Source of the DNA: a virus
Reading direction: 5' to 3' (one strand)
DNA: 30,571 bases
IMG/VR virus record: IMGVR_UViG_3300025127_000157
Span: 1-30,571 of that record
Of the stretch, positions 1-30,571 are shown one piece after another. The notes under the pieces are model-generated. The model had not been told where the DNA came from, did no database searches, and saw only the letters and a list, made by a program, of their open reading frames with translations. The stretch's first letter is position 1, and every line of letters starts with the position of its first letter. The position numbers and the translations under genes were made by a program.

Positions 1-148
1 GAGGCTTTGGTATTTTTAAACTTTGACCAACGCGAATTTTATTTACATCTTTTAAGTTGGGATTAGCTGCTACAATATCTTGAATACGAATACCAGCATC
101 TTTTGCAATTTGTGATACAGTGTCTCCGCTTTTAACTTTATATGCCAT
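1..148 (-). CDS. LysM-domain protein, 3' end outside window
   Basis: The reading frame starts at ATG 148-146 and runs off the left edge, so only the first 49 residues are visible. They form one LysM fold: the opening YKVKSGDTVSQIA, a central DIVAANPNL and the closing IRVGQSLKIPKP are the classic landmarks. LysM domains bind the glycan of peptidoglycan. In phages they sit on lysins or on virion proteins that touch the cell wall; which of these applies cannot be told without the missing C-terminus. The start codon overlaps the stop of the preceding gene by one base (TAATG), so translation is probably coupled. The LysM assignment is firm, the role is inferred. Confidence 0.85.
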   Translation of the reverse strand, partial: MAYKVKSGDTVSQIAKDAGIRIQDIVAANPNLKDVNKIRVGQSLKIPKP

Positions 149-450
149 TAGTACTTTCCTTTCCTTGCTTTAGGGCTAGACTGTTTTGGTTTACCTGCCC
201 CACCCCACAAGGTACGACATGCCCAATATCGTGCTGACAATATGTCACTAGCTGTATCACACTTGTGTCTGGCACGAAACGACTTACGTGCTGCAGCACT
301 ATAGTTGTGACCATAGCCTGTAGCACCAAAATGAATTAATCTAATTGTCTCACCCTTCTTGGCAAGAACCATTTTCTTTTTACCCGCACGATTACTCTTG
401 ATAGGTTTGTTGTAACCGGGAAATGTTATGCCACGATATTTGACAGACAT
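148..450 (-). CDS. Small basic conserved phage protein (100 aa), function unknown
   Basis: A Lys/Arg-rich protein with a recognisable C-terminal half: KSFRARHKCDTA followed by ARYWACRTLW, a signature I recall in many marine phage small proteins, with two conserved cysteines. The middle segment MVLAKKGETIRLIHFGATGYG looks like a small beta-rich fold. No enzyme motif is seen. The start overlaps the previous stop (TAATG at 452-448) and its own stop overlaps the LysM gene start, so it lies inside a tightly coupled late-type cluster. A structural or DNA-associated role would fit the basic composition, but this is a guess. Confidence 0.75.
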   Translation of the reverse strand: MSVKYRGITFPGYNKPIKSNRAGKKKMVLAKKGETIRLIHFGATGYGHNYSAAARKSFRARHKCDTASDILSARYWACRTLWGGAGKPKQSSPKARKGKY

Positions 451-689
451 TACGTAGGCAACTCCTCTGCAGGTGGTTCAGGTATTTTAGGCGGCTCGTT
501 AAACATTAATGTCATTGGACCACAAGATGCTGCCCAATCTTTTATAGTGCCGTTTTCCATTTTAGGCACGTGCATCTGCAAGACAGCTTCTTCTGTAGGA
601 CACTCAACTACATTTTCTGTATAGCTTTTAAGTGTGCCATCTGGCATAACAATCACAGATAGAAACACATAGAAGGTAATAGGTATCAT
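450..689 (-). CDS. Hypothetical protein with hydrophobic N-terminus (79 aa)
   Basis: I do not recognise this family. Residues 1-15 (MIPITFYVFLSVIVM) are hydrophobic and could be a signal anchor or simply a buried strand. The C-terminus is rich in proline and glutamate (PPKIPEPPAEELPT), and two cysteines lie at positions 29 and 56. Start ATG 689-687 overlaps the upstream stop as ATGA and the stop overlaps the next start as TAATG, which supports it as a real gene in the leftward operon. Confidence 0.65.
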   Translation of the reverse strand: MIPITFYVFLSVIVMPDGTLKSYTENVVECPTEEAVLQMHVPKMENGTIKDWAASCGPMTLMFNEPPKIPEPPAEELPT

Positions 690-907
690 TGTTCATCTTT
701 CTCTGTCCACCCTTCAGCCCTCATAGCATCTTCTACGTGCTTCAAAGTAAACTTACGTCCGTAATGTGCTTCAACAGCACTACGCACATAGAACACATCG
801 CTGTGTGGTATGTGTAAACGGTCTAATGAATTAGTACGGATAGCATGATAAAATGCATCAAGTACATTATCTGTATATAGTTTTACGGATTTCTTAGCCA
901 AAGTCAA
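686..907 (-). CDS. Hypothetical protein, first gene of the leftward operon (73 aa)
   Basis: The frame is open from a TTG at 907 (a second TTG lies at 901) and contains no ATG or GTG near its beginning, so the start is uncertain. No Shine-Dalgarno sequence precedes either TTG; a perfect TATAAT on the minus strand (924-919) lies only about a dozen bases upstream, so a nearly leaderless transcript is possible. The protein is mixed helical with no known motif. It ends with an ATGA overlap into the next gene, which supports the frame. It is the first gene after the control region and probably the first product of the leftward operon. Confidence 0.55.
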   Translation of the reverse strand: MTLAKKSVKLYTDNVLDAFYHAIRTNSLDRLHIPHSDVFYVRSAVEAHYGRKFTLKHVEDAMRAEGWTEKDEQ

Positions 908-938
908 GAACTTTTTTAATTATAGGCACGAATACTAT

Positions 939-1062
939 CACTTAAAGTGTATTAGCAAAGAAAATCTTATAAGAACTCTTAACTATACACTTAAATGTCT
1001 ATAGTTAAAGAGTCTTTTTAAGAGTTATTAAGTAAACATTTAAGTGAGTCACTTTAAGTGTG
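939..1062. repeat. Array of four 11-bp dyad motifs (candidate operators)
   Basis: Site 1 at 939-949 reads CACTTAAAGTG; site 2 at 988-998 reads CACTTAAATGT; site 3 at 1036-1046 is the exact reverse complement of site 2; site 4 at 1050-1060 is the exact reverse complement of site 1. Sites 1 and 4 are themselves palindromes around a central base. Sites 3 and 4 are 14 bp apart and lie just downstream of the leftward promoter. Matching sequences occur near two other promoters (5668-5681, 8025-8034). Operator for a phage regulator is the simplest reading; origin iterons are the alternative. Confidence 0.65.
975..1013. other. Hairpin in the leader of the leftward operon
   Basis: ACTCTTAACTATA (975-987) pairs with 1000-1013 over 13 bp with a single bulged A; the loop contains motif site 2. 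On the plus strand the stem is followed by CTTTTT, so it could end rightward transcripts; on the minus strand no U-tract follows, so in the leftward leader it would act as an mRNA structure or as extended dyad DNA. It is weakly stable because it is mostly A/T. Confidence 0.5.
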
Positions 1063-1076
1063 TCTAGTTATACATA

Positions 1077-1105
1077 ATTATACCATATTTTTTTAAGCAT
1101 GTCAA
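1077..1105 (-). promoter_or_regulatory. Perfect consensus sigma-70 promoter, leftward
   Basis: Read on the minus strand, the -35 box is TTGACA (1105-1100), the spacer is exactly 17 bp, and the -10 box is TATAAT (1082-1077), preceded by TGG that gives an extended -10. All twelve box bases match consensus. Transcription would start near 1070 and run left into the operon beginning at 907, passing through the four-site array. Such a strong host-type promoter with dyads immediately downstream suggests that it must be held off by a repressor. Confidence 0.85.
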
Positions 1106-1232
1106 CCCCTATCACGTAATTATTTTTAAAAAGAGGTAAATATAGCGTTGCTCATGTATGGCGAACTGTCAGTTGCACTTGTGGTTAACACTTAATTTTC
1201 CTAATCTGTGTATTTCTGTGTACACGTAACGG

Positions 1233-1262
1233 GGGTACGGGGTGGTGTCCCCTGCCCTACCC
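1233..1262. other. GC-rich hairpin in AT-rich surroundings
   Basis: GGGTA (1233-1237) pairs with TACCC (1258-1262) and, inside it, GGGG (1239-1242) with CCCC (1249-1252). The block stands out sharply from the A/T-rich DNA around it. No U-run follows on either strand, so it is not a standard terminator. Role unknown. Confidence 0.4.
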
Positions 1263-1361
1263 GCTTGATTTTAAAAGATATGCCGCTAAATCAGCCAAAA
1301 AATAAAAAATAATAGCAGAATAGATGCTTTTTTATTTAATATCAACGAGTTAGCCTATCAA

Positions 1362-1386
1362 ATAGACTGTTGTGTTATCAGTCTAT
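1362..1386. repeat. Perfect 8-bp inverted repeat
   Basis: ATAGACTG (1362-1369) and CAGTCTAT (1379-1386) are exact reverse complements around a 9-nt centre. It could be a protein-binding dyad or a small stem. It lies in the gene-free control region. Confidence 0.45.
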
Positions 1387-1415
1387 GCCTATATTGTGCC
1401 GATTATGGTTGTAAA

Positions 1416-1432
1416 TTGTAAAATGTTTACAA
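1416..1432. promoter_or_regulatory. Perfect 17-bp dyad, operator-like
   Basis: TTGTAAA (1416-1422), ATG, TTTACAA (1426-1432): two perfect 7-bp half-sites. A further TTGTAAA directly precedes it at 1409-1415, giving a tandem half-site. The geometry is typical of a dimeric helix-turn-helix protein site. It differs from the CACTTWAAGTG motif, so a second regulator or a host protein is possible. Confidence 0.45.
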
Positions 1433-1483
1433 AAACACAGCGGCGGTGCATGTAAATGTCTACACACTACACCCCTCAAAAAA

Positions 1484-1612
1484 TATGCATACTTATATAA
1501 TACAAAAAAAATTTTTATCTTTTCAACTTTTTTTAAAAATAATTATTCAATAAAATCAATAGCTTATTTTACTGAATGCTATTTTATCTTTATAAATCAA
1601 TATGTTAGTTGG
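1484..1612. other. A/T-only stretch, candidate DNA unwinding element
   Basis: This stretch is overwhelmingly A and T, with long A and T runs, and contains a 12-bp stem with one mismatch (1545-1556 with 1566-1577). It sits directly left of the AGCG direct repeats at 1657-1719. Repeats next to an A/T block is the usual architecture of an origin, which is an inference here. Confidence 0.4.
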
Positions 1613-1656
1613 GGGTTTACTTTATTAATCACTTGGTGCTAATGTTTAGAGACTGA

Positions 1657-1719
1657 AGCGAACAAAGCAAAGCATCAGCGACAAGCCCTAGAGGTAGCGA
1701 CAAGATGCCAAGCGGAAAC
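1657..1719 (+). repeat. Four short direct repeats (AGCGAMAAG-like)
   Basis: AGCGAACAA (1657), AGCGACAAG (1677), AGCGACAAG (1696) and AGCGGAAAC (1711) occur in the same orientation, spaced 20, 19 and 15 bp. GCATC at 1672 can also pair with GATGC at 1704, enclosing the two identical copies. They may be iterons for an initiator protein or part of a structured transcript. Confidence 0.4.
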
Positions 1720-1813
1720 GACGACCGATTGAGCCAATGGGCAAGGGTACAGTTTCAGATACTAGGCCAGCCTATAGGCCAATAGAATTAGGCTAGATGC
1801 TAACAAGGGTTTT

Positions 1814-1890
1814 GATAATTTTTCCGATTGTTAGATGAAGCACTAAAAAATTATCGCTTGACTAACTAGGCATTACGAATTAACGTAATG
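1814..1890 (+). other. Two perfect stems upstream of the first early gene
   Basis: GATAATTTTT (1814-1823) pairs perfectly with 1846-1855 around a 22-nt loop, and CATTACG (1871-1877) pairs perfectly with CGTAATG (1884-1890) around a 6-nt loop. The second stem spans the -10 region of the candidate promoter at 1858-1886, so it may be an operator. If transcribed from further upstream, both would form in the 5' leader. Confidence 0.45.
1858..1886 (+). promoter_or_regulatory. Candidate rightward early promoter
   Basis: TTGACT (1858-1863), 17-bp spacer, TAACGT (1881-1886). The -35 box is good and the spacing matches the other promoters here, but the -10 box matches only three of six bases. It would start transcription about 30 bp before the first early gene at 1923. 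Confidence 0.4.
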
Positions 1891-1922
1891 AGACATTAAC
1901 AAAACAGCGATAGGTGGATACC

Positions 1923-2132
1923 ATGGCTAGGCAAAGATTAGGTAAGCGAGAGCGTGCCGCAATGCGAGAATGCAATCAAATTGCAAACATCAGAACAAGT
2001 GGCATGATATATCGCGACTATTACGAATTGAGTTTTACCGCTAGAGTGTGTAAAAATCACAAGGGTAGCTATGCCAAATCAAAGCCTAGTCATGCCATCT
2101 ATGACAAATGCCAAAAAGCAAAGAGAGCATAA
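1923..2132 (+). CDS. Small basic early protein (69 aa), function unknown
   Basis: First gene of the rightward operon. I chose ATG 1923 because a good AGGTGG Shine-Dalgarno (1912-1917) sits five bases before it; the in-frame GTG at 1914 overlaps that site. The product is rich in Arg and Lys (MARQRLGKRERAAMRECN) with three cysteines and no hydrophobic segment. No helix-turn-helix could be picked out with confidence. A nucleic-acid-binding host-takeover protein would suit the position and charge, but that is inference only. Confidence 0.6.
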   Translation: MARQRLGKRERAAMRECNQIANIRTSGMIYRDYYELSFTARVCKNHKGSYAKSKPSHAIYDKCQKAKRA

Positions 2133-2143
2133 AAAAAAAACGA

Positions 2144-2173
2144 TTGACAAAAAATTAGCCACAAGGCTAGGAT
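2144..2173 (+). promoter_or_regulatory. Candidate early promoter with dyad in spacer
   Basis: A perfect -35 TTGACA at 2144-2149 is followed after 18 bp by TAGGAT (2168-2173), a four-of-six -10 match. A small perfect dyad, TAGCC (2156-2160) with GGCTA (2165-2169), lies in the spacer. The 11-mer AGGTGGATACC at 2188-2198 repeats the ribosome-binding region found at 1912-1922. The region from 2133 to 2287 holds no gene. Confidence 0.45.
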
Positions 2174-2287
2174 TATATAGAGCTTGCAGGTGGATACCTC
2201 GCTCATAGAAACCTAAAGGTTGACAAAGTGTAGTCATGGGGTGTAATGTATACCCATAACGTAACCACAATCAAAAGAGGTGATATT

Positions 2288-2443
2288 ATGATTGTAACAC
2301 AAAACAACGGTTTTCTTTCAGTAGCACGTGATAAGCAGGGGCTTTTCGTACCTATTACGACAGTAAATGCAAAGCCAATTATCAGCGAGTTAATTGAAAA
2401 AGAACGTGCAATCATGTTTGAAGCAAAACGTGATGCGGCATAA
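2288..2443 (+). CDS. Small early protein (51 aa), function unknown
   Basis: ATG 2288 is preceded by GAGGTGATATT, a clear ribosome binding site, so it is preferred over the upstream in-frame ATG at 2246, which has none. The protein begins with a short beta-like stretch (MIVTQNNGFLSVARD) and ends with a charged helix. No motif was recognised. It stands alone between two gene-free gaps. Confidence 0.6.
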   Translation: MIVTQNNGFLSVARDKQGLFVPITTVNAKPIISELIEKERAIMFEAKRDAA

Positions 2444-2446
2444 GTT

Positions 2447-2483
2447 ATGGTGCAATGTGCTATCGTGGTGCATTGCACCCCAT
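2447..2483 (+). other. Strong intergenic RNA hairpin
   Basis: GGTGCAATG (2449-2457) pairs perfectly with CATTGCACC (2471-2479) and the outer ATG/CAT bases extend the stem across a two-base bulge. The loop is 13 nt. There is no U-tract after it, so it is not a standard terminator. It lies in the 72-nt gap before the gene at 2516; a copy of the half-site ATACACTTAAA follows at 2486-2496. A processing site or leader structure is possible. Confidence 0.55.
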
Positions 2484-2515
2484 GAATACACTTAAACCAA
2501 CAATAGAGGTGAATT

Positions 2516-3115
2516 ATGACTGTAGAAAACATATTGACCATTTACAAAATGGCAACACCGGAAGAAAAGCGTGACGGTATCGTATGGTATGCCAACGCGC
2601 TATCAGAATGTAACCGCATATCACTAGACCTAGATGTACCGTTACACATCGTGACGGGTGTATGTGCGGCACTATCCCCCAATAATAAATGGGATAGAAA
2701 CATTGTTAATGCGCGTGATTTATGCCAAGCGTTTATTAACGGTGATGATATAGACAGCGTGAAAGTGTCCACATATCATGCCATGAAGCGCAAGGCATGG
2801 GCTATACTTGAAGCAATGCCCAATCATAGCGGTGTTATTGATATCTTGAATGGGCAAAAGATTGTCTCATTCTATCGTAACATTATGGGTGATGACACTT
2901 GCACGATAGACGGTCATGCGCGTAATATCGCATATGGTGAGCGTGTAGGCTTGACCGATGACAAGACAAACATAGGTGTAAAAGAATATCGCGAGTTACA
3001 AGCACAATATGTGCAAGCGTGTAAGCGTACCCGTGTTAATGGTCGCGCACTCAAAGCGTTTGAATTGCAAGCCATTACATGGGTAACATGGCGTAGAATA
3101 CATAACATTACATAG
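2516..3115 (+). CDS. Conserved phage protein resembling the HhH-GPD DNA glycosylase core
   Basis: 199 aa with a strong ribosome binding site (GAGGTGAATT) before ATG 2516. This family is common in phages and usually left unnamed. The region around residues 50-140 follows the order seen in endonuclease III: an early helix LSPNNKWDRNI, a hairpin-like LNGQKIVSFYRN with Lys115, then CTIDGHARNIA with Asp132. In E. coli Nth the catalytic Lys120 and Asp138 lie in a comparable GVGRKTA...VDTH arrangement, 18 apart against 17 here. No Fe-S cysteine cluster is present. A base-excision or modified-base role is an inference; the protein could equally be a nuclease-dead relative. Confidence 0.6.
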   Translation: MTVENILTIYKMATPEEKRDGIVWYANALSECNRISLDLDVPLHIVTGVCAALSPNNKWDRNIVNARDLCQAFINGDDIDSVKVSTYHAMKRKAWAILEAMPNHSGVIDILNGQKIVSFYRNIMGDDTCTIDGHARNIAYGERVGLTDDKTNIGVKEYRELQAQYVQACKRTRVNGRALKAFELQAITWVTWRRIHNIT

Positions 3116-3125
3116 GGGTGATAAA

Positions 3126-3419
3126 ATGAATAGCGCAAACACACTAATTGAAAACCTATCTATCAATAGGCTTGTGCCTTACTATCTTATGAGTAGTTAT
3201 CTATATTACAAAGAGGACAAGCAGGTATTGACCGATGATGAATTTGATGCACTATGCAAGCGGCTATTGGCTAATTGGGACAGCATAGAACATATGCACA
3301 AGCACCTAATCACTAAAGGTGACTTGACCGCTGGCACTGGGTATGCTATCAAATATACCAACATGATAATAGGTGCTGCCAATAGGTGGTATGAATTAAC
3401 ACAAGCTGAGAGGGCGTGA
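3126..3419 (+). CDS. Stand-alone protein resembling DNA ligase LigA domain Ia
   Basis: 97 aa. Residues 25-44 (YLYYKEDKQVLTDDEFDAL) line up without gaps with the NMN-binding domain Ia of NAD-dependent ligase (YLYHVMDAPEIPDAEYDRL in E. coli), keeping both tyrosines, the middle Asp and the D-x-E-[YF]-D signature. The adenylation, OB and HhH domains of LigA are absent, so it cannot be a ligase on its own. It might bind NAD/NMN or interact with the host ligase. The start ATG 3126 has a GGGGTGATAAA site. The alignment is from memory of the LigA sequence; function is inferred. Confidence 0.55.
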   Translation: MNSANTLIENLSINRLVPYYLMSSYLYYKEDKQVLTDDEFDALCKRLLANWDSIEHMHKHLITKGDLTAGTGYAIKYTNMIIGAANRWYELTQAERA

Positions 3420-3421
3420 CA

Positions 3422-3613
3422 ATGGAAAATCTACTAAACTTTAGCGTAAAGGATGTCTACGGGACAGCAAGATACTATCCACAGGACAGGCAAAGCAGGT
3501 GCATTGTGAATGAATTGATGCAACAAAAATGCTTGAACGCAACACAAGTTAAAAAACTAAAGGTGGTGGGTGGTTTTGCCATTAACATTCTGAGAGATTG
3601 GGAGATAGACTGA
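3422..3613 (+). CDS. Small conserved phage protein (63 aa)
   Basis: ATG 3422 has an AGAGGG site upstream; the GTG at 3416 in the same frame overlaps the previous stop and is less likely. The pattern ENLLNFSVKDVYGTARYYP near the N-terminus is one I recall from many phage small proteins of unknown function; the C-terminal half is helical. The stop overlaps the next start as ATGA. Confidence 0.65.
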   Translation: MENLLNFSVKDVYGTARYYPQDRQSRCIVNELMQQKCLNATQVKKLKVVGGFAINILRDWEID

Positions 3614-3804
3614 TGAAAAAATTTGAAATGCTAGACTTGTTTCTGATTGCAATGCTTATGGTGGGCATATTTTTTGGGCTTGCCATGTTATCACTACATG
3701 GTGTAGGCTCTATGTCGTGGCTATCATGGACACTGTTTGGATGCAGTGCATGGTGCCTAGTCGTAGGCTGGGGCATTGTGGCATATAACCTAGAAAAGAG
3801 GTAA
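3613..3804 (+). CDS. Small membrane protein with two predicted TM segments (63 aa)
   Basis: ATG 3613 lies in an ATGA overlap and has GGAGATAG upstream, which is better than the non-ATG starts before it. Hydrophobic segments span about residues 8-28 and 37-58, separated by a short polar turn, and the protein ends in NLEKR. It resembles a small two-span membrane protein such as a holin or superinfection-exclusion factor, but its place among early genes argues against lysis. No family was recognised. Confidence 0.6.
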   Translation: MKKFEMLDLFLIAMLMVGIFFGLAMLSLHGVGSMSWLSWTLFGCSAWCLVVGWGIVAYNLEKR

Positions 3805-3807
3805 CAC

Positions 3808-3969
3808 ATGGCTATTAGAGTAACAAGAGTGCATAACCCAGTGGCGGCTTACAATAGGCGAAGACCTATAGTAGAAAAGCCAAGCAAGGGTAAGGGTTCA
3901 CACAATAGACAGAAGGATGAAAACAATGCGATTAAATACGAACAAGATGCGTATAAAAAAGGTGAGTAA
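3808..3969 (+). CDS. Small basic hydrophilic protein (53 aa)
   Basis: ATG 3808 follows the preceding stop by a few bases with AAGAGGT upstream. The product (MAIRVTRVHNPVAAYNRRRP at the start) is strongly basic and lacks hydrophobic segments. It ends at TAA 3967-3969, inside the overlapping gene that follows. Function unknown. Confidence 0.5.
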   Translation: MAIRVTRVHNPVAAYNRRRPIVEKPSKGKGSHNRQKDENNAIKYEQDAYKKGE

Positions 3970-4102
3970 AAAAGCCCCTGAGTGGAAGCGTAATAGAATG
4001 ATAGAACAATCTATGCGTGTCACCATTATTAACAAGGCGTTTGACTTGGCAGAATCAGATGGTGAAGCCGTAGCCACACACATGGGCAAGCGTTACCCAT
4101 GA
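3926..4102 (+). CDS. Small basic protein overlapping the previous gene by 44 nt (58 aa)
   Basis: ATG 3926 has AAGGA eight bases upstream; ATG 3917 and ATG 3950 in the same frame are alternatives. The protein is Lys/Arg-rich at its N-terminus (KMRIKKVSKKAPEWKRNRM) and ends MGKRYP. Its stop overlaps the next start (ATGA at 4099-4102), which supports the frame. The real overlap shrinks to 20 nt if the ATG at 3950 is used. Confidence 0.5.
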   Translation: MRLNTNKMRIKKVSKKAPEWKRNRMIEQSMRVTIINKAFDLAESDGEAVATHMGKRYP

Positions 4103-4230
4103 CTAAGTGTGTTACAGCACTGTGCATATACAATCAGATGCCGTGGGACAGTGTGTTCATTGGCGGTTATCTGGTTGTATCTGTAATCGGAATATGTTAT
4201 ATAATATATAAACTGTACAAGGATGGATGA
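4099..4230 (+). CDS. Small single-pass membrane protein (43 aa)
   Basis: Starts in an ATGA overlap. Residues 19-38 (VFIGGYLVVSVIGICYIIYK) form one clear transmembrane helix, followed by a positively charged tail (KLYKDG), giving an N-out, C-in prediction. The N-terminal part has two cysteines. No family was recognised. Confidence 0.5.
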   Translation: MTKCVTALCIYNQMPWDSVFIGGYLVVSVIGICYIIYKLYKDG

Positions 4231-4231
4231 T

Positions 4232-4465
4232 ATGACACCTAGTTGGCAACCAACAGAAGCAACGTGGGCTAACGCCCAGCTATATCGCTGTGACCTATAC
4301 GACACACGCTATCCTGTATGCGGCACACGCCTTGTCTGGGTAGTGGTGGGCAGAAAGTGGGTACGCTTTTGCACACCTATACAGCACGACAAGTGGCGTA
4401 TCCGGCGTGAGGAGTGGGATAAGATACCACATGAACTATTTGTAAAGGATGAAGACGATGACTAG
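4232..4465 (+). CDS. Hypothetical Trp-rich small protein (77 aa)
   Basis: The ATG at 4232 sits eight bases after AAGGA; ATG 4223 in the same frame overlaps that site and would add three residues. The protein has seven tryptophans and a central TRLVWVVVGRKWVRFCTP segment that looks like a beta-hairpin, then an acidic tail (KDEDDD). The last codons overlap the next gene start at 4458. Confidence 0.55.
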   Translation: MTPSWQPTEATWANAQLYRCDLYDTRYPVCGTRLVWVVVGRKWVRFCTPIQHDKWRIRREEWDKIPHELFVKDEDDD

Positions 4466-4586
4466 AGATGAATTATTTGAATGGCTTGAAACCTGCCCCA
4501 CCAATGGGTGGCATTGGGTAGGCGAGGACGAGGGATACATTCGTATCTTGTTTGAGATTGACGAGGAGATTGATGATGATTGTTAA
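4458..4586 (+). CDS. Small acidic conserved protein (42 aa)
   Basis: Starts inside the previous gene. The pattern MTRDELFEWLETCPTNGW followed by GYIRILFEI and an all-acidic tail is one I recall from small phage proteins of unknown function. Its last codons (GAGGAG at 4563-4568) supply the ribosome binding site of the next gene. Confidence 0.55.
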   Translation: MTRDELFEWLETCPTNGWHWVGEDEGYIRILFEIDEEIDDDC

Positions 4587-4737
4587 GAAAGCACAGCACT
4601 TGCTATGCCTTGTGCATGAGATAGAAATACTCAAAGAACGCCTACAACCACATGACACAGGCCACATCAGTACGGCTATCAGTGTGTTGCAACAGCGCGT
4701 AATTGAAATGCAAAAGGAGATTGATGACGATGCGTAA
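4573..4737 (+). CDS. Small coiled-coil protein (54 aa)
   Basis: Begins with two consecutive ATG codons (4573 and 4576) just after GAGGAG and overlaps the previous gene. Heptad-like spacing of Leu, Ile and Val from LVHEIEILKERL to VLQQRVIEMQKEI suggests a helical coiled coil with a break at PHDTG. Function unknown. Confidence 0.5.
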   Translation: MMIVKKAQHLLCLVHEIEILKERLQPHDTGHISTAISVLQQRVIEMQKEIDDDA

Positions 4738-5011
4738 CACATACAAACTAATCATGGACAGTAGATACAACCCGCTGTCTAACATACCAGACACAAACAC
4801 AAGGCACATGGTCATGCAGATACTGGCTTGGATGTGGTGCATTATCTTCAGCATGTGGATGGGCAGCATCGTTGTCTTTGGCATCAGTGCCGCATTACAC
4901 GCCCTGCTGATTGCTGGTGTGTTCATCACGGCTGGTGTATTTGAAACAGCCAAGCGCAAGCCACAGTATTTTGGTGGGCTAGGCAGGGGTAATGGGGGTG
5001 AGCATGAATAA
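4730..5011 (+). CDS. Membrane protein with two TM segments (93 aa)
   Basis: AAGGAG at 4714-4719 precedes two in-frame ATGs, 4724 and 4730; spacing does not decide between them and I list the shorter. Hydrophobic helices cover about residues 27-50 and 52-71, with a short loop. The C-terminus is basic and glycine-rich (KRKPQYFGGLGRGNGG). Two-span early membrane proteins in phages often protect the infected cell or alter the envelope; nothing here shows which. Confidence 0.55.
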   Translation: MRNTYKLIMDSRYNPLSNIPDTNTRHMVMQILAWMWCIIFSMWMGSIVVFGISAALHALLIAGVFITAGVFETAKRKPQYFGGLGRGNGGEHE

Positions 5012-5183
5012 GCTGTATGAGATACATGACGTAGAGGATGGGTCTATCTACCTGATGACATTGCCAATGATACTAGAGGAAATAAACCGTGATAGGTCAG
5101 AGGGGTGGACGAACTACGATGAAACTGATTGGCGTGAGGGACTAGCACAATTTACAACATATGAGGTGATGAACGATGAATAA
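5004..5183 (+). CDS. Small acidic protein (59 aa)
   Basis: ATG 5004 follows GGGGGTG and overlaps the previous stop. The protein (MNKLYEIHDVEDGSIYLMTL at the start) alternates strands and acidic turns; no motif was recognised. The stop overlaps the next start at 5176. Confidence 0.5.
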   Translation: MNKLYEIHDVEDGSIYLMTLPMILEEINRDRSEGWTNYDETDWREGLAQFTTYEVMNDE

Positions 5184-5319
5184 GTATTGGCACAAAGTGA
5201 AATATTATTATCTAACGCATGATGGTATTGAAATGTTCGTGTTCTTCTGCATCTTTGCGTTTTTAGGCTGGGCAGGTTATCATGCCATAGCTGGTGTTAT
5301 AGAAAGGATAATAGGATGA
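5176..5319 (+). CDS. Small single-pass membrane protein (47 aa)
   Basis: Translated from ATG 5176, which lies inside the preceding gene. Residues 18-39 (IEMFVFFCIFAFLGWAGYHA) form a single hydrophobic helix. The N-terminus is basic and aromatic (NKYWHKVKYYY), so the N-terminus probably stays inside. It ends in an ATGA overlap with the next gene. Confidence 0.5.
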   Translation: MNKYWHKVKYYYLTHDGIEMFVFFCIFAFLGWAGYHAIAGVIERIIG

Positions 5320-5525
5320 ATGGTGTAGCAGTTATTCTTGCCTGTCTAGGCACAATCAGTACCGACAAAGTAGAACTAGATGTATGGTCAGGACATAAGT
5401 GGTTGTCGCAGTGTCATGTGGCATCTACCATAAGAAGTTTTGACTATCCACAACAGCAATGCTTTTGCATAGAAAGGAGTGACGACAATGTACATAGACC
5501 CAATATACCCGGACAAGGCCAGTGA
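5316..5525 (+). CDS. Small protein with hydrophobic N-terminus (69 aa)
   Basis: Starts in an ATGA overlap. Residues 3-13 (GVAVILACLGT) are hydrophobic but lack the usual basic lead, so it is at best a weak signal peptide; ILAC is a poor lipobox. Four further cysteines or polar aromatic residues follow. The final 38 bases overlap the next gene. Function unknown. Confidence 0.4.
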   Translation: MNGVAVILACLGTISTDKVELDVWSGHKWLSQCHVASTIRSFDYPQQQCFCIERSDDNVHRPNIPGQGQ

Positions 5526-5691
5526 CAAACGACTGGTTCATGTAACAGACGAGAGACGTAGGCTCATGCGTGAACATAGTGACTTAATATTTGAAGGTGC
5601 AGACCAAACCCTGATAGATGCTAAGTGGAAAGAATACATGGCTATGAGGCAGTTAGATAAAGAGGGTGTCACTTTAGTGACTAAGTTTTAA
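5488..5691 (+). CDS. Small helical charged protein (67 aa)
   Basis: AAGGAG at 5473-5478 lies nine bases before ATG 5488; the GTG at 5479 is too close to that site to be used. Residues 23-60 form an amphipathic charged helix (DERRRLMREHSDLI, then DAKWKEYMAMRQLDKE). This is the last gene before a gap with a strong promoter; its final codons contain a dyad resembling the control-region motif. Confidence 0.55.
   Translation: MYIDPIYPDKASDKRLVHVTDERRRLMREHSDLIFEGADQTLIDAKWKEYMAMRQLDKEGVTLVTKF
5668..5681. promoter_or_regulatory. Operator-like dyad upstream of an internal promoter
   Basis: GTCACT TT AGTGAC is a perfect 6-bp dyad and closely resembles motif site 4 of the control region (GTCACTTTAAGTG). 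It ends 15 bp before the -35 box at 5697. A second palindrome, GTTTTAAAAC, lies in between at 5685-5694. Confidence 0.45.
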
Positions 5692-5696
5692 AACAC

Positions 5697-5725
5697 TTGA
5701 CCCCTGTTTTTTTCTGTGCTATAAC
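5697..5725 (+). promoter_or_regulatory. Strong internal promoter
   Basis: TTGACC (5697-5702), spacer of exactly 17 bp, TATAAC (5720-5725): ten of twelve consensus bases, in a true intergenic gap. Transcription would start near 5732, about 37 bp before the GTG start at 5769. The promoter at 12058 has the same form. Confidence 0.75.
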
Positions 5726-5768
5726 CTGTACAAGATAATCGTCAGTTGATATGAAAGGAGATAATAGA

Positions 5769-6008
5769 GTGGATATAACACACGAAGAGAGACTTGAATT
5801 TCTCAAGGCTCACAATGACTTGAGGAGCATAGTTCAGACATTACATGAGATGAGTGATTTATGGGTGTCTGATGTAGGTAAGTTAGAGAGAATTGAATGT
5901 TTACTACACAGAGTGATGAAGTTTGTACCTCAGATGGATGATGAGGGCAGACCAAAGTATTACGCAGACTATGTGCTTGCCGATGATAACAACGAGAAAG
6001 GAGAATAG
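5769..6008 (+). CDS. Hypothetical helical protein, GTG start (79 aa)
   Basis: AAAGGAG (5754-5760) followed after eight bases by GTG 5769 sets the start; the in-frame ATG at 5751 overlaps that ribosome site and has none of its own. The protein is mostly helical and acidic (ITHEERLEFLKAHNDLRS and LERIECLLHRVMKF). It is the first gene behind the promoter at 5697 and is followed after 2 bp by the DUF932-like gene. Confidence 0.6.
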   Translation: MDITHEERLEFLKAHNDLRSIVQTLHEMSDLWVSDVGKLERIECLLHRVMKFVPQMDDEGRPKYYADYVLADDNNEKGE

Positions 6009-6010
6009 AT

Positions 6011-6859
6011 ATGCCGTTTGATATTCCAATGAATACAATGATTCCAGAAAGCCTAAACTTTGATGTAGTGTTTGAGCCTACAAAGGTGAAAGATAAAAAA
6101 TACGTCATCAACGGTAACACTGGTGAATACATCGGTGTGGTGGGTGATACGTTTAACTGTGCCAGCCATACAGCTTTCTTTGAGGGTGTGCATAACACCA
6201 TCACAGAAAACCTTGGTGATGCAGAGTGTGAGGGCATGAATATGAAGTGGAACATTGCCCGACAGAATGCATGGGCTATGCTCGACATGACCCTGCCTAA
6301 CGTGACTGCTCGTATTGAGACAGACAAGCACAGCACCACCATCGCACAACGTATCATTGCTCTGCATGGTATTGATGGTAGCTGTTCCAACCAGACCTAT
6401 TTTGGTGCGATAGATTTCTTCTGTACCAATGGTATGATTCGTGGTGAGCATGACAAGATACGGCGTAAGAACTCTGCCAACTTTAGCATGGGTAGGTTTA
6501 TTCGTGACCTGCGTGAATCTACGCAGTCATTCTACGCACAGTCAGAACGCTTACAGGGCTGGGCTAACAAGCCTCTGTTTGTTGGTGACGTTAAGTCTAT
6601 GCTTGAGTCTTTGCTAAAGTCTGACAGGACATCTGAGAAAATGCTTAACTTGTACAATCAAGAAGCATCAGTTCGTGGACAGAATGTCTGGGCTTTGTAC
6701 TCTGCGTTTACTAACTATGCAAGCTATGCTGATGAGCGTAACGGCTTTGCCCTGCGTAACACTGGCAAGGATACCAATGCAGTGTCTATGTTTCAACGCG
6801 AGAGTAAGGTGTCTCAGTGGATTGACAGCAAGCCATTCAAGGAGTTGATTGCAGCATGA
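6011..6859 (+). CDS. DUF932-like phage protein (282 aa)
   Basis: The core, near residues 115-150, reads ALHGIDGSCSNQTYFGAIDFF followed by CTNGMIRG. It follows the DUF932 pattern of a Gly-Ser element, a strand, then C-x-N. DUF932 proteins are found in plasmids and phages; their biochemical role is not established. The N-terminal third is beta-rich (YVINGNTGEYIGVVGDTFN), the C-terminal part helical. No transmembrane segment. A clear AAAGGAGAATAG precedes ATG 6011. Family call is by eye. Confidence 0.65.
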   Translation: MPFDIPMNTMIPESLNFDVVFEPTKVKDKKYVINGNTGEYIGVVGDTFNCASHTAFFEGVHNTITENLGDAECEGMNMKWNIARQNAWAMLDMTLPNVTARIETDKHSTTIAQRIIALHGIDGSCSNQTYFGAIDFFCTNGMIRGEHDKIRRKNSANFSMGRFIRDLRESTQSFYAQSERLQGWANKPLFVGDVKSMLESLLKSDRTSEKMLNLYNQEASVRGQNVWALYSAFTNYASYADERNGFALRNTGKDTNAVSMFQRESKVSQWIDSKPFKELIAA

Positions 6860-7143
6860 AAAGGTATGTAATTCAGTTTGCACCCAATTGGTGTGATGGG
6901 TGTTTATCGTATGACACTGATGCTGTTTCTGAAGAAGCAGCATTGGCTACCATAGACAGACTTCTAAAAGAAAATGCAAGTGTAGATTTACATGATGTAA
7001 CAGCAGTCGATGTTTGGGAATATCCCAAAGACGATGACACTTTGCACCTTGGATGCCCTAGTTATCCTAATTGTGATGAGGCTCCCCTTGGCTGTCTAGT
7101 ATCTATGGGAGATAATGTTGAGTGGTATGGACATAGAGATTAG
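6856..7143 (+). CDS. Cys-rich hypothetical protein (95 aa)
   Basis: Starts in an ATGA overlap with the previous gene. Cysteines are grouped as WCDGC (residues 12-16) and GCPSYPNCDEAPLGC near residues 66-80, enough for one or two metal-binding knuckles. The middle is a ferredoxin-like mix of helix and strand (EEAALATIDRLLKEN). No known family was recognised; zinc binding is an inference. Confidence 0.6.
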   Translation: MKRYVIQFAPNWCDGCLSYDTDAVSEEAALATIDRLLKENASVDLHDVTAVDVWEYPKDDDTLHLGCPSYPNCDEAPLGCLVSMGDNVEWYGHRD

Positions 7144-7152
7144 GAGAACAAA

Positions 7153-8031
7153 ATGAAGACAGTAAAACATCTTGTGGATAAGTACTATAATTCCAATGAT
7201 TTCAAGATGTTACGAAGCAGAACTAAGAAAGACTATCAATACTTTCTTAGTATAATGGTGGACGATTTTGGCTCTGTGAATTTTTGTGAACTCACAAGTA
7301 AGCAGGCCAAACACGCATACGAATCATGGGTTGTGCGAGGCATCAGTCTCGCCAACCATGTATGCACTGTGTCATCTATCCTGTTTCGTTACGCTATTGA
7401 AATGGAGTATACACACGTCAATCCATTTGCAAACATCAAACGTAAAACGCCACCACAACGAAAAGTTGTGTGGACAGAAGATGATGTACGTCAGTTTCTT
7501 GACACTGCCTATTCTAAATTTGAATGGCGTAGTATCGGATTGATAGTTCACATGGCTTATGAATGGTGTCAACGTCTAGGTGATATGCGTATGTTAGTAT
7601 GGGACAATATAGATTTTGATGGGCGTAAGCTACATCTTGAGCAGTCTAAGCGTAGGGCAGAGGTGACTTTGCCTATACAAGATGACCTGCTTGAAATGCT
7701 GACACAGCAGGAGCAAGATTTTGGCTTTCAACAGTACGTTGCTCCGCGAATAAAGCCCGTACACGGCGTTTACCATCCTTATGGTATAGATAGACTAGGC
7801 CAAGCTGGTAGGCTTGTCATGCGCGAAGCTGGACTGCCTGATAAATTACGTCTAATGGATTTACGCAGGACAGGTACGACACAAATGGTTGAAGCTGGTG
7901 TCCCTATGGGACAAATTATGTCGGTTACAGGACACAGTAATCCACAATCAGTAAAACCATACATGAAAAATACATACGAGAGTGCAAATAATGCCTTGAC
8001 AGTACGTAAATCTTATGGTAAAAGCACTTAA
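7153..8031 (+). CDS. int: Tyrosine recombinase / integrase
   Basis: 292 aa, a normal size for phage integrases. An N-terminal SAM-like core-binding domain (about 1-95) precedes the catalytic domain. Active-site residues seen: Arg141 (CQRLGDM), Lys166 (EQSKRRAE, beta-hairpin), Arg238 (MDLRRTG), His261 (VTGHSN) and nucleophile Tyr270 (VKPYMKN). The His of the HxxR box is replaced by Met235. AGGAGAAC precedes ATG 7153. It lies directly before the replication genes, and its 3' end carries a promoter for them. It could integrate the phage or resolve replication products; no att site was identified. Confidence 0.9.
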   Translation: MKTVKHLVDKYYNSNDFKMLRSRTKKDYQYFLSIMVDDFGSVNFCELTSKQAKHAYESWVVRGISLANHVCTVSSILFRYAIEMEYTHVNPFANIKRKTPPQRKVVWTEDDVRQFLDTAYSKFEWRSIGLIVHMAYEWCQRLGDMRMLVWDNIDFDGRKLHLEQSKRRAEVTLPIQDDLLEMLTQQEQDFGFQQYVAPRIKPVHGVYHPYGIDRLGQAGRLVMREAGLPDKLRLMDLRRTGTTQMVEAGVPMGQIMSVTGHSNPQSVKPYMKNTYESANNALTVRKSYGKST

Positions 8032-8034
8032 ATG
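7996..8034 (+). promoter_or_regulatory. Promoter for the replication genes with overlapping operator half-site
   Basis: TTGACA (7996-8001), 17-bp spacer, TAAAAG (8019-8024): perfect -35, four-of-six -10. CACTTAAATG at 8025-8034, directly after the -10 box, is identical over 10 bp to motif site 2 of the control region. The promoter lies in the last codons of the integrase gene and would serve primase, helicase and polymerase. Confidence 0.5.
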
Positions 8035-8057
8035 CCGACAACGAAAGTGAGTATATA

Positions 8058-8825
8058 ATGAATAATATATATAACATTATAAGTGATATAGATATACCTA
8101 ATGGACAGACTAAACGTATGGATTGTCCTAACTGTGGTGGCACAAAGACATTCACTGTAACCAATAATCTAGGTTCTCTTGTGTGGAACTGTTACAAAGC
8201 CTCTTGTAATGTACGTGGTGGTAATCGTGTACACTTAACAGTGGAAGATATACGTACCAGTATGAGTAATGCGCAGCACTTTGCTGAAGAGCAGTTTGAA
8301 TTACCTGAATACGTTGTCCCATACCTGAGTGATAAAGCAAAAAGTTGGTTAGACTCTTGGGGTATTTATACAAACAAACTAAACTTTATGTATGATGTAA
8401 AAGAAAATCGTGTGGTGTTTCCCGTAATGCACAATAACAAAATTGTAGATGCTACAGGACGTGCTTTGAGTAATCGTTTGCCTAAGTGGAAACGGTATGG
8501 AAAAAGTGGCTTGCCTTTTAACTTTGGTTGTGGTAAAGTCGCAGTTGTTGTTGAGGACTGTGTGAGTGCAGCCGTTGTTGGTTACGGTTCCTTTGTCGGG
8601 GTTGCGCTTCTTGGTACATCTCTACAAGATTCGCATAAAGGGTATCTTGCACAGTTCTCAACAGCAGTTATAGCGTTAGACCCCGATGCGCTACCAAAGA
8701 CTTTGCAAATGGCAAAGGAACTACGTGGACATGTAAACGATGTTCGTGTCCTACGTTTGAAGGATGATTTGAAATATCGTAACCCGACAGATATGGAGAA
8801 CTTAAATGGAATTGTCGATTATTAG
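8058..8825 (+). CDS. DNA primase (T7 gp4 N-terminal half type)
   Basis: 255 aa. A zinc-binding domain with Cys23, Cys26, Cys45 and Cys50 (CPNCGG ... CYKASC) is followed by a TOPRIM domain with Glu166 (VVVEDCVSAA) and the DxD pair Asp208/Asp210 (ALDPDAL). This matches the primase half of T7 gp4; here primase and helicase are separate genes that overlap by 20 nt. It lays down RNA primers for lagging-strand synthesis. The start follows GTGAGTATATA, a modest ribosome site. Confidence 0.9.
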   Translation: MNNIYNIISDIDIPNGQTKRMDCPNCGGTKTFTVTNNLGSLVWNCYKASCNVRGGNRVHLTVEDIRTSMSNAQHFAEEQFELPEYVVPYLSDKAKSWLDSWGIYTNKLNFMYDVKENRVVFPVMHNNKIVDATGRALSNRLPKWKRYGKSGLPFNFGCGKVAVVVEDCVSAAVVGYGSFVGVALLGTSLQDSHKGYLAQFSTAVIALDPDALPKTLQMAKELRGHVNDVRVLRLKDDLKYRNPTDMENLNGIVDY

Positions 8826-10038
8826 AAGCCTAATGGATAAATCATTCTATGATGACCATCGTGGTAGCAAGTGTCCACCACGTTTGTTCAGCAAGGATGC
8901 ACGTAAAATTAAAGAAGCTATTGATACAGCCATGGATAGGTATGAGCGTACTGTCTCACCAGATGAAGTTGAGGCATTGTTTATATCTAATAACCCCACG
9001 CTGACTACAGCACAGAAGCAAGCCTATGCTTCTATGTTTGCTTCTATCAAACGCGAACAGCCTATGGGCAGTGACATAGCACAAGAGGTGTTATCTAAGC
9101 TGTTCCAACAAGTAGTAGGCGAGGATGTAGCTAACATTGGATTTGATATGGTTAATGGTGATGCAGCCACGCTAGAGAAACTACGTAATCTGCTAGAAAA
9201 ATACGGGGATGACTTTATTCCTAATCTTAATATTGAGTGGGATGATATTACTATCGAAACCCTCATGTCAAAAGCAGAGTTAGAGGCACGTTGGACATTC
9301 AACATACCATGCGTGACTATGAAGGTAGAAGGTGTTAGCGGTGGTCAGCTTATCGAAGTAGGTGCTAGACCCAATACAGGTAAGACATCCTTCCACGCTA
9401 GCTTGATTGCTGCACCGGGTGGCTTTGCACATCAGGGTGCTAAGTGTATTATCTTGTGTAACGAAGAGCCTACACACAGAGTTGGCGCACGTTATCTAAC
9501 TGCAGCAGCAGGTATGTCAGCAAGGGAAGTTAAAGATAACATGGCTAAAGCTAAATCATTATACGAACCAGTAATGAATAATATTAAAATAAAAGAGGCT
9601 GGTGGTCGTGACATGGCTTGGGTTGAATCTGTATGCAAATCATACAAGCCAGATGTGTTAGTGTTGGACATGGGTGATAAGTTTAGTGCAGATGGTAATT
9701 TTGCTAGGCAGGATGAGGCACTCAAGGCTTGCGCTATATATGCTAGACAGATTGCTAAGACGTATGACTGTGCTGTATTTTATATGTCACAGTTATCTGC
9801 AGAAGCAGAGGGTAGGTCACAGCTTAATCAGTCTATGATGGAAGGCTCACGCACAGGTAAAGCTGCTGAAGCTGACCTGATGATACTGATTGGTAAGAGT
9901 CCAGCCAAAGATAAAATAGAGGGCGAAGAAGAAGATAGCCCACTACGTCATATTAATGTAGTAAAAAATAAGTTGACAGGCTGGCATGGTATGGTAAACT
10001 GTAACCTAGATTATTTAACAGCGAGGTACACAGACTAA
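8806..10038 (+). CDS. Replicative DNA helicase (DnaB / T7 gp4 helicase family)
   Basis: 410 aa, RecA-like fold. Walker A is GARPNTGKT with Lys193; the catalytic Glu follows the next strand in LCNEEP; Walker B is VLVLDMGDK with Asp288; an H3-like segment YMSQLSAEAEG and a C-terminal basic loop follow. Residues 1-150 are a helical N-terminal part without primase motifs. It overlaps the primase gene by 20 nt with GGAGA before ATG 8806. It should form the hexamer that unwinds the fork with the primase next door. Confidence 0.9.
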   Translation: MELSIIRSLMDKSFYDDHRGSKCPPRLFSKDARKIKEAIDTAMDRYERTVSPDEVEALFISNNPTLTTAQKQAYASMFASIKREQPMGSDIAQEVLSKLFQQVVGEDVANIGFDMVNGDAATLEKLRNLLEKYGDDFIPNLNIEWDDITIETLMSKAELEARWTFNIPCVTMKVEGVSGGQLIEVGARPNTGKTSFHASLIAAPGGFAHQGAKCIILCNEEPTHRVGARYLTAAAGMSAREVKDNMAKAKSLYEPVMNNIKIKEAGGRDMAWVESVCKSYKPDVLVLDMGDKFSADGNFARQDEALKACAIYARQIAKTYDCAVFYMSQLSAEAEGRSQLNQSMMEGSRTGKAAEADLMILIGKSPAKDKIEGEEEDSPLRHINVVKNKLTGWHGMVNCNLDYLTARYTD

Positions 10039-12080: not shown

Positions 12081-12086
12081 TATAAC
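12058..12086 (+). promoter_or_regulatory. Strong internal promoter before the ssDNA-binding gene
   Basis: TTGACA (12058-12063), 17-bp spacer, TATAAC (12081-12086): eleven of twelve consensus bases. The -35 box lies in the last codons of the polymerase gene. It has the same form as the promoter at 5697, and both are followed by an AAGGAGATAAT ribosome site. Confidence 0.75.
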
Positions 12087-12119
12087 TATGCATCTTACAA
12101 AAGAAAAGGAGATAATTGT

Positions 12120-12998
12120 ATGAATCAAGTAATGACTATTGACACAAACAACTTTGGCGAAATGGCTAAAGCTATGGGTATTGCTAATGAAGCACCTGCT
12201 GCTAAAAAGCAGGGTGTGTTTCTTGCCCGTCTCAGAATAAACCACTCACCTATTCTTGGCTCTGATACTATTAAAGTCAAGGGCGGTACTTATAAGCTAG
12301 AGATTCCTGATGGCCCTGTTTATTATGCAGAGTCTGCTATCATGCGTCCATTCCTGCAACGCTTTATGTATAAAAAGTTTGTTATGGGTAGTGGTGGTAG
12401 TCCCAATCGTTATGTTAAGACTGTCATGGCTGACACGCTTAACTTGGACTTAAAGGATAATGATGGTGGCTTTAATTGTGGTAAACCTGCTGGTTGGATT
12501 GAAGATTTTAATTCACTACCCGATGCTACAAAGGAACTAATACGTTCTATTAAACGAGTTCGTGTGGTGATAGGAACCGTGCAACTTACTAATGCAAAGG
12601 ATGTGGATGGTAAAGATGTGGAAGTTGGAGCCACTCCGTTTATCTGGGAAGTAGAAAATCGTGATGCATTTAAAACTGTGGGTTCTGTATTTACACAACT
12701 AGCAAAGATGAAGCGTCTACCTGTGCAACACAATGTTACGTTGAATACAGAAGAGCGTAAGTTACCTAATGGTAATAGTTTCTATTTACCTGTAACATCT
12801 TTGGATGTTGCAAATAGCATTGACCTTACTCAAGATGACCAAAAAAAGTTTGCTGACTTCATGTCTTGGGTTACTAATTATAATCAGTATATCATTAATG
12901 CTTATACAGAAAAGACATCACAAAAAGCTGACGAGGCTTTAGATGATTTAGATATGGATGGGGTTGTTGATATCGAGTTTGAAGAAGAGGTGGCTTAA
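12120..12998 (+). CDS. Putative ssDNA-binding protein
   Basis: 292 aa with its own strong promoter and an excellent AAAAGGAGATAAT ribosome site, so high expression is expected, as for phage SSBs. The body is beta-rich (VFLARLRINHSPIL, GGTYKLEIPDGPVYYAES) and the C-terminus is long and acidic (EALDDLDMDGVVDIEFEEE), the usual SSB tail that recruits replication partners. It sits between the polymerase and the recombination exonuclease. I cannot point to a signature motif, so the name rests on tail, position and expression signals. Confidence 0.55.
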   Translation: MNQVMTIDTNNFGEMAKAMGIANEAPAAKKQGVFLARLRINHSPILGSDTIKVKGGTYKLEIPDGPVYYAESAIMRPFLQRFMYKKFVMGSGGSPNRYVKTVMADTLNLDLKDNDGGFNCGKPAGWIEDFNSLPDATKELIRSIKRVRVVIGTVQLTNAKDVDGKDVEVGATPFIWEVENRDAFKTVGSVFTQLAKMKRLPVQHNVTLNTEERKLPNGNSFYLPVTSLDVANSIDLTQDDQKKFADFMSWVTNYNQYIINAYTEKTSQKADEALDDLDMDGVVDIEFEEEVA

Positions 12999-13855: not shown

Positions 13856-13856
13856 G

Positions 13857-14063
13857 ATGGAGATTGAAGTAAATGAACTCGCAGAACAAATTAAGGAAGC
13901 GGAACTGCACCTTTCGGAACTTCGGAAGGAGTATCGTGAACGGAAGACTGCAGGTTTACGTGCGGCGATATCAGCGCGTAATGAAGCAGATAAAGTCTTG
14001 CGCGAAGAGCTACAGGCTTTAGGCTACCGTAGTCCATTTATCTCATGGCGTGATACGGCATAG
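13857..14063 (+). CDS. Small coiled-coil protein (68 aa)
   Basis: ATG 13857 lies ten bases after AAGGAG (13841-13846); the in-frame ATG at 13848 is only one base from it and inside the previous gene. Residues 3-40 form a heptad-like charged helix (VNELAEQIKEAELHLSELRK). The C-terminus RSPFISWRD is more ordered. It lies between the exonuclease and the resolvase. Function unknown. Confidence 0.6.
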   Translation: MEIEVNELAEQIKEAELHLSELRKEYRERKTAGLRAAISARNEADKVLREELQALGYRSPFISWRDTA

Positions 14064-14518: not shown

Positions 14519-14520
14519 AC

Positions 14521-15339: not shown

Positions 15340-15342
15340 GAG

Positions 15343-18334: not shown

Positions 18335-18356
18335 ACAGTGGATGAAGGAGAGGTAT

Positions 18357-22047: not shown

Positions 22048-22049
22048 TA

Positions 22050-23333: not shown

Positions 23334-23334
23334 G

Positions 23335-23835: not shown

Positions 23836-23838
23836 TTA

Positions 23839-30183: not shown

Positions 30184-30193
30184 CTACTTATCC

Positions 30194-30568: not shown

Positions 30569-30571
30569 TAG

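Follow-up and report, generated by a model that had tools for sequence, protein, structure and literature searches.

A near-consensus leftward promoter followed by a conserved array of short symmetric sites in HMO-2011-type phages: a candidate operator locus

The stretch of DNA analysed here (the window, 1-30571) comprises an entire virus record of 30,571 bases, corresponding to about half the length of the HMO-2011 genome (55,282), and represents a fragment of an HMO-2011-type phage according to the core genes and the gene order that it has in common with HMO-2011. According to the literature, phages of this type dominate in the ocean and have a broad distribution there (PMC9038755). The genes of the window are arranged in a short leftward block (148-907), a rightward region for early functions and replication (about 1914-18695) and a second leftward block (18709-30571), to which hypothetical genes and tail genes correspond in HMO-2011. 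The short block, which is led by a homolog of HMO-2011 gp71, is preceded by a perfect promoter and by several short symmetric sequences. This arrangement raises the question of what these sequences do at such a promoter and, if they serve as binding sites, which protein recognises them.

Promoter P1 and the sites in its leader

The initial annotation of this DNA had claimed a perfect leftward promoter of the sigma-70 type, and this claim was confirmed. The promoter P1, which reads into the block 148-907, combines consensus -35 and -10 hexamers at the spacing of about 17 bp that characterises sigma-70 (RpoD) promoters, and its spacer contains the TG of an extended -10 region. No other 12/12 sigma-70 site is present on either strand of the window (30,571 bases), for which simulations with its dinucleotide frequencies gave an expectation of 0.04 such sites. 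Weaker promoter-like sites showed no clear enrichment in the region 1-4000 (19 versus 13.7, sd 3.7). Transcription from P1 is predicted to start near position 1070, and the region 901-1100 is AT-rich with a GC content of 24.5%.

The same annotation had described four copies of an 11-bp motif in a mirrored arrangement downstream of the promoter. The positions and both reverse-complement relations proved to be exact: on the plus strand, 939-949 (CACTTAAAGTG) is the reverse complement of 1050-1060 (CACTTTAAGTG), as is 988-998 (CACTTAAATGT) of 1036-1046 (ACATTTAAGTG). However, each site is itself nearly palindromic over 10 or 11 bp, and the mirror relation between the sites results from this self-symmetry. 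The mirrored layout is thus incidental, and relatives do not keep it: the middle site (start 55-90) has the form CAC..ATG in 17 of 20 representatives, is symmetric in one and reads CAT..GTG in two only, the window and L075. The site starts of the window after the -10 region are 17,31 / 80 / 128; all four sites are thus located downstream of the predicted start, the first one at the 17th nucleotide after the -10 hexamer and about 10 bp beyond that start. The coordinates are compiled in Table 1.

Table 1. Features of the P1 locus and the adjacent leftward operon (window positions)
Feature	Position	Strand	Remarks
Strongly conserved non-coding block upstream of P1	1167-1231		holds GTGGTTAACAC (TTAACCAC on the minus strand)
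Promoter P1, sigma-70-type	1077-1105	minus	-35 TTGACA 1105-1100; 17-bp spacer; -10 TATAAT 1082-1077
Conserved initial transcribed stretch GTATAACTA	1065-1073	minus	8/9 positions invariant in 10 aligned leaders
Operator-like site 1, CACTTAAAGTG	1050-1060	minus	first pair; invariant in 10 aligned leaders
Operator-like site 2, CACTTAAATG	1037-1046	minus	first pair; its start is 14 bp from that of site 1
Operator-like site 3, CATTTAAGTG	988-997	minus	second pair; without clear partner in the window
Conserved box ATTTTCTTTGCTAAT	951-965	minus	directly before third pair; ATTTTCTTTG and TAA invariant in 10 aligned leaders
Operator-like site 4, CACTTTAAGTG	939-949	minus	third pair; without clear partner in the window
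TTGACT abutting the start codon	902-907	minus	-35 of a possible second promoter; TAAAAC 885-880 inside the gene
First gene of leftward operon, 71 aa	686-901	minus	HMO-2011 gp71 homolog; TTG start, ATG in most relatives
Second gene of leftward operon, 79 aa	450-689	minus	no named function
Third gene of leftward operon, 100 aa	148-450	minus	matches part of a PHROG with the name minor head protein and DNA pilot

Within the 175-nt leader, four pattern matches were counted against 0.051 expected, a number that was reached in 0 of 20,000 simulated leaders. The sequence CACTTWAAGTG does not recur exactly elsewhere in the window, and no enrichment was found when two mismatches were allowed (15 versus 12.3). 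Within the window, a cluster of at least three sites in 160 bp is confined to this place, and the regions 1-50000 and 50500-55282 of HMO-2011 contain one such cluster.

Conservation and variation of promoter and array in related phages

Two scans provided the relatives for comparison. The first one, seeded with the 71-aa protein, retained the best 80 of 251 relatives, and the second one the best 80 of at least 585 relatives in a set that overlaps with the first. Of 76 upstream regions, among them that of the window and many that are alike, 68 contain an exact TTGACA-N15..19-TATAAT; these 76 were taken from 81 sequences after omission of upstream regions that were too short. In 28 non-redundant leaders, selected because their promoters scored 11 or higher, TTGACA is found in 28/28, TATAAT in 25/28, the TG in 21/28 and the 17-bp spacer in 26/28, and the mean pairwise identity amounts to 47% in the spacer and 36% in the 40 nt above the promoter versus 83% in the gene. 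With regard to the isolates, the promoter of HMO-2011 matches at 12/12 positions with a 17-bp spacer and those of CRP-2 and CRP-13 at 12/12 with a 16-bp spacer; the -10 region of CRP-1 and CRP-345 is the weaker TAAAAC, and CRP-207, CRP-603 and CRP-9 carry weaker sequences without a perfect promoter at this place.

Near-identical leaders were removed from the representative sets for the analysis of dyads, site density, folding and site types, and L124 and L172 were left out of sets A4 and A7 owing to a misassigned start. When no motif was given, the top trinucleotide dyad of 29 non-redundant leaders (CRP-13 included) was CAC-N5-GTG, with 36 occurrences versus 0.6 expected, and CAC-N4-ATG occurred 30 times versus 1.1 expected. 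A pattern combining the two dyads yielded 99 sites in 5,084 bp of leader sequence (19.5/kb), distributed over 26 of the 29 leaders; the density was 2.2/kb upstream (13 sites in 5,797 bp) and 2.9/kb downstream (112 sites in 38,326 bp). The contrast is smaller for a loose pattern over 330 nt that include the promoter and more upstream sequence (11.3/kb versus 4.6/kb downstream); in the clade of the window, a match to the loose pattern touches the region from -35 to the start in 6/37 leaders, five of them at one offset.

Fuller arrays consist of six or seven sites in three pairs, with the pairs about 46 bp apart and the sites of a pair 12-14 bp from start to start. Examples are L061 (18,32 / 64,76 / 109,121), L084 (19,33 / 67,79 / 113,126) and L080 (19,31 / 61,73 / 105,117). 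This comparison establishes that the promoter and an operator-like array are kept in related phages, with symmetric repeats clustering near the promoter, and that the array is confined to the leader. Since the array is kept, the loss of the sites in relatives, which would speak against the proposal of the initial annotation, was not observed.

Additional seeded scans, from which the best 80 loci each were taken, were performed for CRP-2 (of 527), CRP-13 (of 133) and A5 (of 361); the CRP-13 and A5 sets have seven leaders in common. The CRP-13 and A5 sets together revealed 125 copies of TACT-N2..3-AGTA in 44 non-redundant leaders (8.63/kb; 41/44 leaders) versus four in 26,245 bp downstream, and the dyad TAC-N5-GTA was counted 127 times in the CRP-13 set (14 expected). 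From the CACT to the TACT type, the outer C:G pair becomes T:A on both sides of the site, and the core ACT-N3-AGT is common to both. In these two sets, the first site begins at most 14 nt after the -10 hexamer, or before its end, in 9/12 and 12/18 site-bearing leaders, and a site overlaps the region from -35 to the start in 8/15 and 7/19 leaders, respectively; in L402, a site is located within the promoter spacer. The palindrome of the CRP-2 set is AACATTAATGTT, with the dyad GTT-N1-AAC found 43 times versus 4.3 expected. Sites similar to AACATTAATGTT are less regular and present in 34/74 leaders of this set, and in several of them AACATTAATGTT stands after one promoter and inside the spacer of a second. 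The CRP-2 set provides weaker evidence, as 3/16 non-redundant leaders passed the promoter score.

The distribution of exact site types differs between these groups. CACT-N2..3-AGTG is absent from the leaders of the CRP-2, CRP-13 and A5 sets (0/74, 0/72 and 0/74; 0/220), in which TACT-N2..3-AGTA occurs in 4/74, 55/72 and 73/74 leaders; among 86 leaders from the first scan and the isolates, the latter type is restricted to CRP-9 and CRP-13. Among 95 distinct leaders of the clade of the window, 60 contain CACT-N2..3-AGTG without CATT-N2..3-AATG, six contain at least two CATT-N2..3-AATG and no CACT-N2..3-AGTG, two contain both and 27 neither; 24 of these 27 have one-sided variants and three have none. 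One-sided variants are also present in L136, one of the six CATT leaders. According to these counts, a site tends to differ in both of its halves together, as do the sites within one array, and the comparison establishes a lineage-specific change on both sides of the sites. Duplication within the array could contribute.

Candidate mechanism and alternative explanations

On balance, the locus probably represents a strong promoter of the host RNA polymerase under repression by a dimeric phage protein that binds the array as DNA operators. The host RNA polymerase with a sigma-70-type factor would fire leftward from the near-consensus P1 into the operon headed by the 71-aa protein, and the 5' leader would act as an operator array of paired, short, near-palindromic DNA sites. 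A phage-encoded dimeric DNA-binding protein would occupy the site pairs, perhaps cooperatively, and the bound dimer would shut off or delay the promoter at initiation or elongation, presumably by steric block where the sites overlap the promoter, as in other clades; in the window, where the first site follows the predicted start at a distance of about 10 bp, a roadblock or looping would be the means. The initial annotation had proposed a main lytic/late switch that must be blocked by a DNA-binding protein. Since all four sites of the window lie downstream of the predicted start, repression, which we infer here rather than activation, is not forced by the geometry. As to the proposed switch, an early operon could be served just as well by a perfect promoter of the host type.

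Several observations stand against the repression model. No binding protein was recognised among 30 scanned proteins, and 27 of 95 leaders have neither exact site type. The strand bias of the imperfect sites (39 versus 9, see below) is unexpected for a symmetric dimer. Moreover, CRP-3 encodes a distant relative of the 71-aa protein behind an 11/12 promoter, at which no array was visible by eye.

It is unlikely that the sites are bound by a host regulator that the phage exploits or evades. The host type of the promoter, the ACT-N3-AGT core of two site types and the failure to find a phage gene for the binder would suit this explanation. However, four phages that share the host FZCC0023 according to their records (CRP-1, CRP-2, CRP-9 and CRP-13) display three site types, and HMO-2011 and CRP-1, with hosts from different groups, both display the CACT type, as far as the types can be read by eye; the host of HMO-2011 is a SAR116 bacterium. 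The site type thus follows the phage lineage and not the host, and therefore a phage protein is the simpler reading.

Binding of the array by the product of the first gene, which would then repress its own promoter, is quite improbable. The gene heads the operon and its family is present in 9/9 isolate records (in CRP-3 only partially) and in 6/6 isolate records of a gene comparison with 12 relatives. This comparison comprised six contig pieces and partial sequences of six isolates, namely HMO-2011 minus 499 nt, the regions 1-24000 plus the right end of CRP-1, CRP-345, CRP-2 and CRP-13, and 3.5 kb of CRP-9; the row of ORF 4726-5011, for which a wrong frame had been used, was excluded. Four other genes of the window (12998-13855, 14063-14518, 14892-15191 and 15343-17274) are equally widespread, being found in all five of these records whose sequence covered the early region, and therefore the co-occurrence of the 71-aa family with the array is not unique. 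Furthermore, the 71-aa-type proteins of L020, with a CATT array, and L014, with a CACT array, differ at one residue, which disfavours this protein as the binder, as does the CRP-3 relative without visible array.

Structural predictions likewise assigned no DNA-binding family or fold to the 71-aa product, for which only weak matches were obtained. The sequence profile reached a best E value of 0.39 against the PDB, and the initial AlphaFold model had a pLDDT of 57.5. The model of the relative L305 (94 rows; 49% identical to the window protein) had a pLDDT of 89.3 and is almost wholly helical, without a match at E<=0.001; the best PDB hit had an E value of 0.86. In a viral library, the best matches to this fold (1.3e-3 and 7.5e-3) are both proteins without a named function that probably belong to the same family, and the best Z score of VIA-align (2.4) was uninformative.

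The search for another regulator covered 30 proteins (20 from the window and 10 from HMO-2011), among which neither Pfam nor PHROGs indicated a recognisable repressor, although a new family could be missed by these profiles; this agrees with the earlier remark that the window has no obvious repressor gene. The product of 1923-2132, which had been put forward as a candidate, can be rejected, because the gene was detected in one of 12 tested relatives (L008, whose sequence does not differ from that of the window in 2,000 nt) and is missing from the near-identical L007, in which the array is almost identical. No gene family of the early region (within 5 kb) is universal to the array loci, the widest one being present in at least 41/65 loci, a lower bound as several loci are shorter than 5 kb; L008 stood for the window in this count. 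The integrase was also rejected as the binder: CRP-9 and CRP-13 carry TACT sites and have no integrase among the matches listed (15/18 records), none is annotated in CRP-13 1-24000, and CRP-3, which has been reported to be able to integrate (PMC6918029), shows no array by eye at its relative of the 71-aa gene. Six relatives were found in genome contigs, all titled MAG, and no integrated prophage copy in an isolate was seen. The gene of the proposed regulator may reside elsewhere in the genome, for instance in the leftward region of 24-50 kb.

A further explanation, in which the repeats would serve as iterons of a replication origin next to a strong transcription start, possibly together with the conserved upstream block, is improbable as well. 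The AT-rich composition of 901-1100, the number of repeats, the single cluster per genome and the nearby block with TTAACCAC are features of the kind expected from an origin. In CRP-13, however, the region 1-24000 contains no tblastn match (E<=1e-3) to the primase, helicase and polymerase of the window, and this phage, which has its own primase and polymerase annotated there, keeps the promoter and the ACT-N3-AGT sites. In addition, the sites overlap the promoter in other clades.

Finally, a function of the leader as RNA hairpin or attenuator is highly improbable, since the complement of the transcript strand is the more stable one and C-A mismatches are favoured over U-G pairs. The leader of the window folds better than shuffled sequences (z -2.56), and the 28 leaders reached a mean z of -1.97, with 15/28 below -2; such stability is expected from palindromes alone. 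In 26/28 leaders, the fold of the transcript strand has a lower stability than that of the opposite strand (mean -30.4 versus -36.8 kcal/mol). Imperfect sites have a C-A mismatch on the transcript strand (CAC..ATG) in 39 cases versus a U-G pair (CAT..GTG) in nine, and the same lean was found in two other sets with seven leaders in common (17 versus 2 and 8 versus 4). Selection of the transcript strand for pairing, as in a structured leader, was not apparent, and the array behaves more like protein-binding DNA than like RNA; the strand lean of the imperfect sites is not predicted by a symmetric dimer. The window contains no Rfam match at gathering scores and no tRNA. As a separate observation, the CRP-2 leader (L090 1009-1209) forms a long hairpin (z -4.16) whose loop consists of the pyrimidine tract CUCCUCUCCUCCCUCU. 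This tract resembles an anti-Shine-Dalgarno sequence, and a similar one is present in 68/79 CRP-2-set loci (L090 and the L174-L253 relatives); two Rfam matches in four scanned loci were both far below gathering scores.

Comparison with known systems and neighbouring elements

Operator arrays at phage promoters are of a known kind, and the repression proposed for the paired sites of the P1 leader can be compared with several systems. The OL/OR operators of phage lambda, which are bound by CI and Cro, comprise sites of 17 bp. They resemble the present locus in that a strong phage promoter is combined with several near-palindromic sites, whereas the sites described here measure 10-11 bp and number six or seven, in pairs, where the array is fullest; a repressor gene next to them was not recognised among the proteins scanned. 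The overlap of operator and promoter that is typical of lambda was not observed in the window, but in part of the leaders of two other sets. Mycobacteriophage L5 possesses the promoter Pleft and stoperators, asymmetric 13-bp sites that are spread over the genome and bound by the repressor gp71. It has in common with the present locus a strong leftward promoter under control of a phage repressor, which is proposed here, and HMO-2011 carries a homolog of L5 gp82. In contrast to stoperators, the sites at P1 are near-palindromic and, instead of being dispersed through the genome, form the single cluster detected in the window and in HMO-2011 1-50000 and 50500-55282.

MetJ and Arc are small dimers that bind short adjacent operator boxes. 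The likeness consists in short boxes at a distance of about one helical turn; a protein of this kind was not recognised here, and the L305 fold is almost wholly helical, without a close PDB match. In the parC/ParR system, contiguous direct repeats of 11 bp around a promoter are bound by an autoregulator. The presence of 11-bp repeats at a promoter is a shared property, whereas near-palindromes in spaced pairs distinguish the present array. As far as the literature searched shows, the array in this phage group, the paired layout of the leader and the block-wise difference in site type between lineages are new. An account of gene switching in HMO-2011-type phages was not found in that literature, which covered few subscription papers.

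As a tentative and rather doubtful extension, the locus might be immunity-like, with a lineage-specific operator block (CACT, CATT, TACT or AACATTAATGTT) and a regulator family not recognised as DNA-binding in dominant marine phages. If this were true, phages of one host would carry different, perhaps mutually blind repression systems. In any case, the conserved promoter and array provide a handle, as they can be used as bait DNA for the regulator and allow testing whether the site types mark mutually excluding groups in one host.

Further elements were noted in the vicinity of P1. The box at 951-965 reads ATTTTCTTTG(C/T)TAA and is invariant in 10 aligned leaders except for one position. A second promoter is possible at 902-907/880-885, where the inner hexamer is also protein-coding: TTGAC[AT] followed 16-18 nt on by TANAAC inside the 71-aa gene was found in 80/80 loci of the first scan and in 79/79 CRP-2-set loci, and TTGAC[AT] precedes the gene in 35/77 and 55/78 loci of the two remaining sets. 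The block at 1167-1231 is possibly an origin, a packaging site or a second operator. Its sequence TTAACCAC occurs upstream in 28/29 representatives as well as in HMO-2011, CRP-1 and CRP-345, and in 44/70 CRP-13-set loci, 31 of which have an inverted partner; it was also found in 27/71 A5 and 3/62 CRP-2-set loci, none with a partner.

Promoter-like sequences were also observed elsewhere. HMO-2011 (L003) has a second perfect promoter with an extended -10 region at 31754 on the minus strand, in the tail gene region and without a site cluster. In the window, TTGACA-17-TATAAC preceded by TG is located at 12058 on the plus strand, where the DNA polymerase gene has its 3' end. A promoter of this type scoring 11/12 was not found in HMO-2011, and CRP-345 and CRP-1 (both with a 17-bp spacer) as well as CRP-2 (16 bp) have counterparts at the corresponding position.
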